NCBI GenBank assembly: GCA_018816105.1
Contig: JAHIWE010000036.1
Location: 1-64,000, forward strand
Reading direction: 5' to 3'
DNA from: a bacterium
Lineage (GTDB): Bacteria; Campylobacterota; Campylobacteria; Campylobacterales; Arcobacteraceae
DNA: 64,000 nt
Positions 43,306 through 49,175 of the stretch are shown in pieces (within the stretch, counting starts at the first letter, position 1; the number at the start of each line of letters is the position of its first letter). Under the pieces are notes generated by a model. The model did not search any database. It was not told the origin of the DNA and saw nothing but the letters and a program-made list of their open reading frames with translations. The position numbers and the translations under genes are program-made.

Positions 43306-44225
43306 TTATATTAAATCTAACTCTTCGCTTATGTCTTTGATTAGTTTTGAAAGTGGGCGTTTGTTTATATCGATGTCGTCTATGTAACCGCCTGTTATAT
43401 GTCGTAAAACATCTTCACGGTTTTTGAATAATGTTCCTTCATATTTTTGATAAAGTTCATCTATATAACTTTCATTATAGATTTGTGCTTTTTGGATTAG
43501 TTCTAAGGCTATGTCTTTGTGTTCATTGTAAAGATTTTGGATATTAAAAGTTTCTATTTTTCTTCATTTTTTACTATCTCTTTTTCTATTTCTAAAGAAT
43601 CTTTATCATAATAAAATTTGCTATCTTTTATTTTTAATTTAAATTTTACATCATCATTTAAACTCTCAATAAAAGGATGATAAATAACATCTGATTTTTT
43701 TGATTTTCTTTGATTACAAGTTTGACAACTTGGAACTAAATTAAAAATTGAAACAGAAAAATAAGGATATGTACTTTTATCAAAAAAATGGTCAAGTTGA
43801 GCAATTGTATTTAATGATTTTGTTTTTTTAAAATTAAAAATATAGTTTCTATTGCAATATGGACAAACTGTGATATCCAAATCATCAATATATTGTGGTT
43901 TATTTAGTCTTTGATATAAAGTATAAAAATAGTCTTTTTGAGTTTCAGTTAGTTTTGTTGAATCTTCATTATCATCAATAAAAACTTTTAAATCATAAAG
44001 TTCTTTATAACTTAATGTAATTAATTTCTCTAAATCAAGGTCTTTTTTGTGGTATTCAAATTTGCTTTTAATTATTTCATTTAATTCACTAAAAGTAGTT
44101 TTCCATTTTTTATTTTGTTCATTTTTTTCAAAAACTTTCTCATTTCCTTTTTTATCATAAAAATTTGATAAAACTTGAGTTTTAAAATTCTCAATAGTTT
44201 TTGAGGAAACATTTATTTTAATCAT
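43306..44225 (-). pseudogene. PtuB-like HNH endonuclease, frame interrupted by 1 nt in an A-run near 43558 (5' ORF 43554..44225; 3' part 43306..~43563)
   Basis: CPYCNR...QLDHFFDKSTYPYFSVSIFNLVPSCQTCNQRKSKK; after the TAG the shifted frame continues IETFNIQNLYNEHKDIALELIQKAQIYNESYIDELYQKYEGTLFKNREDVLRHITGGYIDDIDINKRPLSKLIKDISEELDLI*. Confidence 0.8.
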
Positions 44226-44259
44226 TATTTAGAATTTTGTTTTTGCATAAACCGAAAGA

Positions 44260-44577
44260 TTAGACATATTTTACTTCTTTTAAAATAAACTCTTTTCCTA
44301 TTTCATTTAAAGAGTCTTTATCCACAAAATCAACTTCTTTATTTAACTCTTTTTTTAAAAACTCTTTTGTATCTGCAAGTTTTGAAAAAGCACTAAAACC
44401 TTTGTATTTTTCCATAAACTCTTTTATATCTTTTATCTCATAAAGTATGTCTATATCACTATTATTGGTATAATCACCTCTAGCGTAAGAGCCAAAAATT
44501 CCAAGAATATTTATACCATCATTAGAAAGAATTGGTTTAATAAGTCTTAGTTTTTCGTAAATATCATTTATACTCAT
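44260..44577 (-). CDS. Minimal nucleotidyltransferase (MNT/MntA-like)
   Basis: GIFGSYARGDYTNNSDIDILYE (GSx10DxD-type) and a third acidic residue in EVDFVDKD; ATGA overlap with the ATPase stop. Confidence 0.88.
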   Translation of the reverse strand: MSINDIYEKLRLIKPILSNDGINILGIFGSYARGDYTNNSDIDILYEIKDIKEFMEKYKGFSAFSKLADTKEFLKKELNKEVDFVDKDSLNEIGKEFILKEVKYV

Positions 44578-46208
44578 TTATCTTCCTTTTTTTCTAATTC
44601 CACCAGTCTTTTAGAAGATTCTTCTAACTCTTTTGTTAGTTTATCAACTTTTTCTCTTATTTTATCAATTTCTGTTTTATTTGACAACTCCATTTTATTT
44701 TTTAGCATTCGTTGAAGTTCTCTTTTTATGATTGGTTCACCAATTATATTTATAATATTTTGAGCATCTTCATCAGTTGTTATGGTACTTTTTTTGTCAT
44801 TGTTTAAATATTTTATCACATCATCAATTTTACTTTTCGCAAACTCACCCATAAGTCCATCTTTCATAAAAAAACCATGAGAAAGTAAAGTATGAATATT
44901 TGCTCCGAATGGGTTTATATCTACATCTACTTGCTTTCCATTTTCTAAGAATATTACATTTTCTTTTGGTAGGTCTGAAAGGATGAATGGGGAATGAGAA
45001 GTTATAATGATATGTAGTTTTTTCGACAATCCTATTTCTTTAATAAAATCAAGTATTATTTTTAAAATTCGTTTTTGCCAATTTGGATGAAGATATAATT
45101 CTATTTCATCAAAAAGTAATATATTGCATTTATCTTTTTCAAATCTTGATAACATCAAATCTATTCTTTCCAAATAAAATAGAATTGTTTTTTCACCTGC
45201 ACTTAATTTTATATCTTTACCATCTTCTGTTTGAAAAGTTAATTGAAAATTTGTTTCTAAATTATATACAGATGAAATCAATGTAAAAAAAGTTTTATAA
45301 TCATCACTTTCAATAATTAAATTGTCTTTTATTTTGTTTAAAAACTCTACTATTTTATCAATCTTATCAGGGACACTTGCATCTATTGCTCTTGCTGAAT
45401 CACCATTTGGTGTATTAGAAATTTTTATATCATTAAGCTTTGTTTTATCATAGTTAATTTTAATACTATGTGGCTGTTTTATTTTAAAAAGTTCAAAAAA
45501 AAGCTTTTTGTATTTATCATCAATCGATAAATTACCTATTGCAAGAGTTTGAAAAAAGTTAAATTGTGAAAGTTTAAATCCTGAAAAAGTTGGATACAAA
45601 TTATCTTCTTTATATAATTCAGAATCATTTTTTCTATAAATACCATAATACTTTATAAGGTCATCGGGGCTTGGATAGTTATTTTTTATAATGCCATCTC
45701 TTTCTAAATGAGATATGTTGAGATAACTTACATCAAAATATTTTTTTAAAGCTATATTGTGATTAGTTATTCCACGACTTAATTTTCCATCTACTAGTTG
45801 TCTTGGAATATGTTTTTCTATAGTTATATCTGTATTTAAGATATCTATATTATTTGTATAACAAATATTTTTCAAACCATCATTTAAAACAAAAAAATAG
45901 TTAAATACTTCTAACCCGCTATTAACTATTAGTATTTTTGATAATACTTCAAATATACTGCTCTTTCCACTTCCATTTTCACCAACAATTGCTGTAACAT
46001 TTATATTATCACCAAAAAAGTTCTTAGGATAAAATTCTCCAGTTTCTTCTTTATCAACAATGTTTAATTCTTTCGTATCTTCATCATACTCACACCTAAA
46101 CCTAGGCGAAAAATTAAACCCTTGCTTTTGTATATTCTTATAATCTTCAACCCACAAATAAACCAATTCCATTAAAAACTCTTTTTCTATTATTTTATTA
46201 CTAATCAT
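44574..46208 (-). CDS. AAA ATPase, PtuA/OLD-like (start probably at 46172)
   Basis: Walker A GENGSGKSS, signature LSAGEKTILFYLERIDLML, Walker B NILLFDEIELYLHP, H-loop TSHSPFILSDLP; C-terminal coiled coil. Confidence 0.88.
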   Translation of the reverse strand: MISNKIIEKEFLMELVYLWVEDYKNIQKQGFNFSPRFRCEYDEDTKELNIVDKEETGEFYPKNFFGDNINVTAIVGENGSGKSSIFEVLSKILIVNSGLEVFNYFFVLNDGLKNICYTNNIDILNTDITIEKHIPRQLVDGKLSRGITNHNIALKKYFDVSYLNISHLERDGIIKNNYPSPDDLIKYYGIYRKNDSELYKEDNLYPTFSGFKLSQFNFFQTLAIGNLSIDDKYKKLFFELFKIKQPHSIKINYDKTKLNDIKISNTPNGDSARAIDASVPDKIDKIVEFLNKIKDNLIIESDDYKTFFTLISSVYNLETNFQLTFQTEDGKDIKLSAGEKTILFYLERIDLMLSRFEKDKCNILLFDEIELYLHPNWQKRILKIILDFIKEIGLSKKLHIIITSHSPFILSDLPKENVIFLENGKQVDVDINPFGANIHTLLSHGFFMKDGLMGEFAKSKIDDVIKYLNNDKKSTITTDEDAQNIINIIGEPIIKRELQRMLKNKMELSNKTEIDKIREKVDKLTKELEESSKRLVELEKKEDK

Positions 46209-46341
46209 AGTTAAATACTTATTTAAAGACTCTTTTGTGATAATCTATGAATTTATATACATTTGTGTACTAATTAAACAAATTTTAGCTTATCAATTTT
46301 CAACTTTTAGATATACTCTAAATAAAAAGTAGGTTTTAATT

Positions 46342-46737
46342 ATGGGAATGTTTGATATTCAATTTAGTAATAAAATTAAATCAAGTTATGGAAATATTCA
46401 TCTATTTGAATTTTTGAAAAAACAACTTCAAAAAAATAAAACTTATCCAAACAAAATAGAAGAGAGTACATTAACTATAGAAAAATGTCGTATAAATACT
46501 TTACTAAGATACAACCTAGACATAAATATCCAAACAAATAAAAAAGACAATATTTCAGAAATCACAGTAAATGGTCAACTTCACGATACTTTGTTATTAA
46601 CTATTTTTATAATCTTATCAATCCTTTTAACCTATGGATTGGGAATCATTTTGGTTATTGGTTTTACTTTTTATCAAAAAGTTGTTGCAACAAAACAATT
46701 GAAAGAATTAATACATAATTACAAATCCACTATTTAG
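46342..46737 (+). CDS. Hypothetical membrane protein
   Basis: 131 aa with C-terminal hydrophobic segment. Confidence 0.6.
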   Translation: MGMFDIQFSNKIKSSYGNIHLFEFLKKQLQKNKTYPNKIEESTLTIEKCRINTLLRYNLDINIQTNKKDNISEITVNGQLHDTLLLTIFIILSILLTYGLGIILVIGFTFYQKVVATKQLKELIHNYKSTI

Positions 46738-46835
46738 GTCTAAATATATAAACCATAAACTAAATTTATTTTCAATCCCTCTTTTTTCCTTCTATTAGTT
46801 TATATACTTTTGTATAAACAAAAAAAGGATTGATT

Positions 46836-47396
46836 ATGGAAAATACAGCATTGATATTAATAGATTTACAAAATGACTACTTTGGAAGCTTTGAAGGTGC
46901 AAAATGGCAACTAAATGAAACTGAAAAGGCAGCAACAAATGCTTTAAAGATATTGACTAAATTTAGAGAAAAAAACATGAAAATAATTCATGTAAGACAT
47001 GAATTCGCTATTGAAAATCCACCATTTTTCGCCCCAAATACACAAGGTGCAAAAATTCACGATACTTTAACTCCAAAAGAAAATGAATCTCAAATCTTAA
47101 AACACAATGTTAATGCATTTAAAGATACAAATCTAAAAGAAATCTTGGATGATTCTAATATTACAAATGTTATTATCGTAGGAGCTATGTCATATATGTG
47201 TATTGATGCCGTTACAAGAGCAGCTAGTGATTTTGGATATAAGTGTTTTGTAGCTCACGATGCTTGTACTACAAGTGATGTGGAATTTAATGGTATTAAA
47301 GTTGAAGCAGCAATAGCACACGCAGCATTCATGGCAGCACTTCAATTTGCTTATGCAAAAGTTGAAACAACAAATGAGATATTAGAATTATTATAA
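46836..47396 (+). CDS. Cysteine hydrolase, isochorismatase family
   Basis: ALILIDLQNDYF, VGAMSYMCIDAVTRAASDFGY; SD before ATG 46836. Confidence 0.88.
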   Translation: MENTALILIDLQNDYFGSFEGAKWQLNETEKAATNALKILTKFREKNMKIIHVRHEFAIENPPFFAPNTQGAKIHDTLTPKENESQILKHNVNAFKDTNLKEILDDSNITNVIIVGAMSYMCIDAVTRAASDFGYKCFVAHDACTTSDVEFNGIKVEAAIAHAAFMAALQFAYAKVETTNEILELL

Positions 47397-47404
47397 GGCG
47401 TAAA

Positions 47405-48088
47405 ATGGAATTAAGTGATTTATCTGTACTTTATATCATGGATAATCAAGATAAAGAAGAGACTTTATACTCTCTTCTTTGTAGTACTGTAAATAAAATA
47501 ACTTGTACTTCAACAATACTGGAAGCAAAACAACAATACATCAAACAATCACCTTGTTTAATCATCATTGATAGTGATTTTGAAAATAGAGATATTATTG
47601 ATTTTTTGATTGAGCTAAGAAGTGATGATATAAAGACTGCCTTTATTGTTTTATCAAATAACAAAAACAACCAATATCTAAGTGAGTTATTAGAACTTTA
47701 CATCACAAAATATATCATAAAACCTTTTAGTGAGGATAAACTAATAGAAGCTTTAAATAAATGTATGGAAATTATTGAAAGAAGAATATTTAGTAATTTC
47801 AAACTTGCAAATGGAATCTTTTTTAACTTTCAAACTCAAAGTATCATAAAAAATGATGAATCATATGTTTTAAATAAAAAAGAGAGTTTATTAATTAACT
47901 TATTCATTCAAAACCAAGGAAGAATAATCACCTATGAAGAAATTGAATATTATATTTGGAATAACGAGTGTACAACTGCCGCATTAAAATCACTAATCAG
48001 AGATTTAAGAAAAAAAACTTTTAAAAATATCATAAAAAACTACTCAGGAATAGGATACAAACTAGAACTTAAAAATATTCATTCCTAA
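47405..48088 (+). CDS. Orphan response regulator-like protein, OmpR type with atypical receiver
   Basis: CLIIIDSDF (phospho-acceptor position), KYIIKPFSEDKL; acidic pair reduced to MDN; winged-helix C-terminus. Confidence 0.75.
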   Translation: MELSDLSVLYIMDNQDKEETLYSLLCSTVNKITCTSTILEAKQQYIKQSPCLIIIDSDFENRDIIDFLIELRSDDIKTAFIVLSNNKNNQYLSELLELYITKYIIKPFSEDKLIEALNKCMEIIERRIFSNFKLANGIFFNFQTQSIIKNDESYVLNKKESLLINLFIQNQGRIITYEEIEYYIWNNECTTAALKSLIRDLRKKTFKNIIKNYSGIGYKLELKNIHS

Positions 48089-48194
48089 GCTTCTTAAATT
48101 CTTCTTATAACCTATTCATCAAACTTTTGATACAATCAACGCTTATTAAAAAACAAAAAATTGAACAAATTTTATAAAATAAAAAGGAAATTAT

Positions 48195-48710
48195 ATGCCA
48201 TTATTAGATAGCTTTAAAGTTGACCATACAATCATGCCAGCACCTGCTGTTAGAGTTGCAAAAACTATGAAATCACCATCAGGGGATATCATCACTGTTT
48301 TTGATTTAAGATTTTGTGTACCAAATGAATCAATGTTAAGTGAAAAAGGTATTCATACTCTGGAGCATTTATTTGCGGGATTTATTAGAAATCACCTTAA
48401 CTCTGACAAAGTTGAAATTATAGATGTTTCACCAATGGGTTGTAGAACTGGTTTTTATATGAGTTTACTTGGAAATCCAGATGAAAAAACTGTGGGAGCA
48501 GCGTGGAGAGCTTCAATGCAAGATGTTCTAGCTGTTGAAAAACAAGAAGATATTCCAGAACTAAATATCTACCAATGTGGAACATGTGCTATGCATTCAC
48601 TTGATGAAGCAAAAGACATCGCAAGAGATATTTTAAAATCGGATATAGGTGTTATGTCAAATGAAGAACTATACCTTTCAGATGAAAAACTAAACGCTTT
48701 AGGAAACTAA
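48195..48710 (+). CDS. luxS: S-ribosylhomocysteine lyase
   Basis: [49 protein letters not shown]. Confidence 0.97.
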
Positions 48711-48716
48711 AATAAA

Positions 48717-49160
48717 GTGCAAAAAAAACTAGAACTTTTTAAAGAGTTATTTGCAGATTATACAAATATCGCTATTTTACATATTGATAACTCTTTAGGA
48801 CTGGTAGACTCAGTACTTGAAGAAGTAAGAGTTCAAAATGAAGGGAATATAAAATATATTCCTTTTGTTGATGAAAATAGCGCAAAACTGCGAGCCACTG
48901 CAAGAGAATATGAATATATTGTTTTAGGAAATATACTAACATACTGTTCAAATCAAGAAGCTATTTTAAAACTAATGTACAAAGCCATTGAAAATTCAGG
49001 AAATATAATCATCCTTGAAAAAATCTCAAATGATAATAGATATGAATTATTAGATTTATTAGAAAATATTGGTTTTCAAGCACCAAATTGTATTGAACTT
49101 TTTGATGATACATATATTTTCACAGCAAAAAAAATGCACCATTGGGACAATGGCTTATAA
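48717..49160 (+). CDS. Methyltransferase-like hypothetical protein (GTG start)
   Basis: 147 aa, Rossmann-like pattern; between luxS and mnmD-like gene. Confidence 0.6.
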   Translation: MQKKLELFKELFADYTNIAILHIDNSLGLVDSVLEEVRVQNEGNIKYIPFVDENSAKLRATAREYEYIVLGNILTYCSNQEAILKLMYKAIENSGNIIILEKISNDNRYELLDLLENIGFQAPNCIELFDDTYIFTAKKMHHWDNGL

Positions 49161-49175
49161 GATGAAAAATTAATT

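Follow-up and report, generated by a model that had tools for sequence, protein, structure and literature searches.

Gene content of the locus

The window, that is, the complete stretch of 64,000 nucleotides analysed, is Aliarcobacter-like and belongs to a draft genome of 183 contigs. Its best genome match was Aliarcobacter sp. STC_124 (G020, locus L004), and a further congener, G001, is about 95% identical over window positions 44221-49173. The minus strand carries a module composed of a Septu-like ATPase and HNH nuclease pair (PADLOC PDC-M62A/B) with an MntA-type antitoxin gene in between.

The ATPase gene (44574-46208) is intact and encodes a PDC-M62A (PtuA-like) ABC/AAA ATPase of 544 aa, which matched the PDC-M62A profile with an E value of 3e-109. 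The mntA gene (44260-44577), also intact, encodes an MntA-like nucleotidyltransferase of 105 aa, the antitoxin type that accompanies HepT; the Pfam models NTP_transf_2 and Polbeta, which indicate the adenylyltransferase of an MntA-HepT pair, scored above their cut-offs, and the NCBIfam MntA equivalog reached 40 bits, below its cut-off of 60. Of hepT only a remnant of 12 codons is left (44267-44229; MSNLSVYAKTKF followed by a stop), so that, contrary to the earlier note, the nuclease is not the only damaged gene of the module. The hepT product is 117-118 aa long in relatives, with a Pfam HepT-like match in one of them. The gene is intact in G001, G020, G031, G248 and G179, in the first two at the same site between mntA and hnh. 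From the hepT start to the hnh start there are 42 nt in the window versus 353 nt in both G001 and G020, 311 nt being missing.

The 5' part of hnh (44225-43554) encodes 223 aa of a PDC-M62B-type HNH nuclease, retains the HNH core (CPYC...DH...N...CQTC) and ends in ...KNEEK at a premature TAG (43556-43554). The linker that carries the lesion occupies positions 43557-43600. The 3' tail (43557-43306) is out of frame, open for 83 codons in the -1 frame, and ends in ...INKRPLSKLIKDISEELDLI; the conserved C-terminal motif [HN]KRPLSKLIKDISEELDLI (43306-43374), recognised by homologue comparison, is untranslated here.

PDC-M62 largely corresponds to the Septu system of DefenseFinder (PMC11811056). As in PDC-M62, the ATPase matches PDC-M62A and the split HNH gene matches PDC-M62B over its length, but in the window the HNH frame is broken, and mntA and the hepT remnant stand between the two genes. 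With Septu PtuA/PtuB the locus shares the pairing of an ATPase with an HNH protein, and the PtuA and PtuB models were matched more weakly (E 5e-21 and 2e-11), PDC-M62 fitting much better. Against NCBIfam PtuA (retron Ec78) the ATPase scored 46 bits, for a cut-off of 500, and no retron genes were identified at the site. The mntA gene overlapped by the hepT start, and the intact HepT-like gene of relatives, resemble the type VII toxin-antitoxin system MntA-HepT (PMC7641770); unlike that system, the cassette of the window lies inside a defence operon and its toxin is lost, the HEPN RNase HepT being reduced to the 12-codon stump. No close copy was found in viral, plasmid and phage collections.

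The frame break in hnh

The 223-aa ORF matched positions 1-227 of the 328-position PDC-M62B profile (E 2e-38) and the 83-aa tail matched positions 245-325 of the same profile (E 6e-29). Both parts tile one profile, which identifies them as a single gene with a broken frame and not as a chance arrangement. The break on the minus strand, with the TAG and the open -1 frame continuing for 83 codons to position 43306, was confirmed. Since the PDC-M62B match spans two frames parted by the stop, the hnh gene of the window is, judging from its sequence, a decayed member of PDC-M62B. No ATG, GTG or TTG for a restart was present in the tail frame.

According to the earlier note, the frame is broken by a single base within an A5 run. 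Of this, the net offset of one base modulo 3 stands, and it is all that is certain about the size of the lesion; the linker, however, is 13 or 16 nt short. It lacks 13 nt with respect to G011, G062 and G252 and 16 nt with respect to G020, and just before the conserved (I)E-x-F these four relatives of the same type carry 4-5 codons that are absent from the window. Between two invariant anchors (F196 and H242 of G020) the distance is 122 nt in the window, not a multiple of 3, versus 138 nt in G020, 159 nt in G011 and G062 and 150 nt in G252, all of which share the same N-half; G011, G062 and G252 also differ from the window further upstream, for which reason the local linker comparison is the one that matters. 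Among 26 homologues the linker of the window is the shortest, the others being at least 129 nt long and in frame, and it would still be the shortest with A6 in place of A5. The lesion is therefore best read, from these alignments, as a small deletion of a length not divisible by three, probably of 13-16 nt, rather than as one homopolymer base. A second apparently frameshifted homologue, in G289, was rejected, its apparent break being a stretch of N in a scaffold gap.

An assembly or sequencing error, with a gene that is intact in the cell and has an unusually short linker, is improbable. The draft state of the genome, the perfect preservation of the -1 frame in the tail and a net offset equivalent to a single base are all in keeping with such an error, but a comparison of 137 conserved orthologues with those of G001, covering about 45,000 codons, revealed no frameshift, a corrected linker would still fall 4-5 codons below those of the four same-type relatives, and hepT was deleted independently. 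A loss of 13-16 nt is also unlike a homopolymer miscall, and the sequencing error contemplated in the earlier note is consequently disfavoured. Five apparent breaks among the 137 orthologues, which could have indicated a frameshift-rich assembly, were all explained by query ORFs that extend upstream into non-homologous sequence.

Production of two nuclease forms at A AAA TAG, whether through programmed -1 frameshifting or through transcriptional slippage, is very unlikely. The AAA codon in the P site can re-pair at -1 and the tail frame is open, but the linker would be too short under every reading, and among 399 genomes of the order no stop was present in any matched stretch except that of the window itself, although at least one homologue, that of G026, is split by a frame break. 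In relatives the tail is encoded in the same frame as the rest of the gene. The tandem-slip pattern X XXY YYZ is absent, the RNA downstream is no better folded than shuffled sequences (z = +0.84; 117-nt site), and A AAA followed by a stop ends 20 of the 290 ORFs (7%) of the sampled genome; a slippery heptamer with a downstream stimulator, conserved in relatives, was not found. The A6, A7 and T7 runs of the same gene would slip more readily. These data do not favour either form of recoding suggested in the earlier note.

Phase variation through a change in the length of the A5 tract, likewise raised there, is implausible and just as improbable as recoding. An A-tract does lie at the break, but it is absent from relatives, eight of the 23 A/T runs of at least 5 in the hnh gene are longer than A5 (including A6, A7 and T7), and the window contains 350 runs of at least 6.

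The C-terminal tail and the predicted inactivation

The TAG cuts off about 83 residues, including the C-terminal tail KRPLSKLIKDISEEL, which is near-invariant in relatives; the homologues encode hnh in one frame that ends in this motif. Beyond the stop fall 17 of the 36 columns that are invariant among 14 homologues, chiefly in KRPLSKLIKDISEEL. In ten intact copies from the same site the last 22 residues of the HNH protein show a mean DNA identity of 89%, versus 50-66% for the remaining gene; in the same copies the ATPase has two islands (residues 1-75 and 401-450) with 83-90% DNA identity around a core of 49-61%. As the tail does not change when the nuclease half is swapped, it would most simply represent a contact with a shared partner, and it constitutes a concrete candidate for a docking element between nuclease and ATPase. 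A structure model of the intact HNH protein of G020 had low confidence (mean pLDDT 60.6) and was left unused. In Septu, mutants in the HNH motif of PtuB abolished immunity (PMC13096335), and growth arrest by retron-Eco7 requires PtuA and PtuB jointly (PMC11555353).

The locus probably represents a Septu-like (PDC-M62) predicted anti-phage operon, with the gene order ATPase - mntA - hepT - hnh, that was inactivated recently. Inactivation was among the options of the earlier note, as the loss of a costly effector, and it is the one that the comparison supports. In the hnh tail the window and G001 differ at six codons, all six synonymous, indicating that the frame was under selection until recently and that the break is recent. 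The linker of hnh is shorter by a number of bases not divisible by three and translation ends at the TAG, so that the HNH core is translated and the conserved C-terminal region is not. If the tail, constant while the N-half of the nuclease is swapped between lineages, docks on the partner ATPase or is activated by it, the truncated nuclease could not be deployed. The HepT toxin gene between antitoxin and nuclease is almost wholly deleted as well, and with the toxin gone the loss of the module would go unpenalised. The cell may tolerate such a loss because of the cost of the system and because a second intact PDC-M62 pair is kept in the same genome (G000:C2:25314-27898, equivalent to L063:3314-5898), with an ATPase of 525 aa, an HNH protein of 336 aa and a slightly altered tail motif. 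A residual function of the truncated HNH protein is possible, the ATPase, mntA and the HNH core still being intact. The locus should be dropped as a recoding candidate, and as an instance of a defence operon in decay it is unremarkable.

Relatives and history of the mlaE-luxS site

G001 and G020 have their operon in the corresponding position, flanked by mlaE and luxS, with ATPase, mntA, hepT and hnh all intact. The N-half of the window hnh has 83% DNA identity to G020 and is diverged from G001, while its tail is 97% identical to G001; for the neighbouring ORF118 the identity is 98% with G001 and 78% with G020. With an N-half that follows G020 and a tail that, like ORF118, follows G001, hnh has a mosaic composition. 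The foreign segment has the hepT stump at one end and the linker lesion at the other. This arrangement, together with the contrasting identities, suggests a failed module swap, a mechanism compatible with the recent inactivation of the operon, in which one recombination would have imported a G020-type N-half of hnh, removed hepT at the left end and broken the frame near the right end. It is put forward tentatively: the similarity to G020 extends about 30 nt beyond the frame break, which argues against a break exactly at the crossover, and two separate events would explain the data equally easily.

PDC-M62 systems were found at the mlaE-luxS site in 14 Aliarcobacter neighbourhoods (window 43306-46208 and L047-L059), chosen for matching the query, with conserved islands and swapped interiors; G021 and G004 have no system there. 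Decay is common there: frames are also broken in G006, G019 and G026, three of the 13 further systems. A tentative view of the site, to which we give about the same weight as to the failed swap, is that of an operon at one fixed Aliarcobacter position that has been re-cut by recombination: islands with 83-90% identical DNA (ATPase residues 1-75 and 401-450 and the last 22 residues of the nuclease) would be retained, sensor and nuclease modules would be exchanged, MntA-HepT would act as an optional guard cassette, and the window would represent a failed swap that lost the guard and the nuclease frame together.

The embedded MntA-HepT cassette was also present in G031 and, in other families, in G248 and G179. 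Its combination with a Septu-like pair in a four-gene architecture is, on sequence comparison with relatives, the less ordinary feature exposed here, together with a fixed site that exchanges ATPase and nuclease modules around a short, near-invariant tail. The titles and abstracts found by a literature search on Septu, HEPN and MNT do not evidently describe such an operon. The mosaic site and the embedded cassette merit separate study.

The architecture ATPase - mntA - hepT - hnh was observed in L047, L048, L182, L186 and L187, in several families of Campylobacterales, and the cassette stands without an adjoining ATPase in L005. In G031, where the system lies elsewhere (L182:4294-6032), the ATPase frame is broken even though the mntA, hepT and hnh genes are all undamaged, evidence against a strict rule by which the toxin cassette would protect the system from decay. 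The mlaE-luxS site also holds a four-ORF block, with or without a defence system (L048, L050, L060 and L061); in G020 its ORFs encode 318, 564, 372 and 365 aa, at least two of them ABC-2 type transporter permeases.
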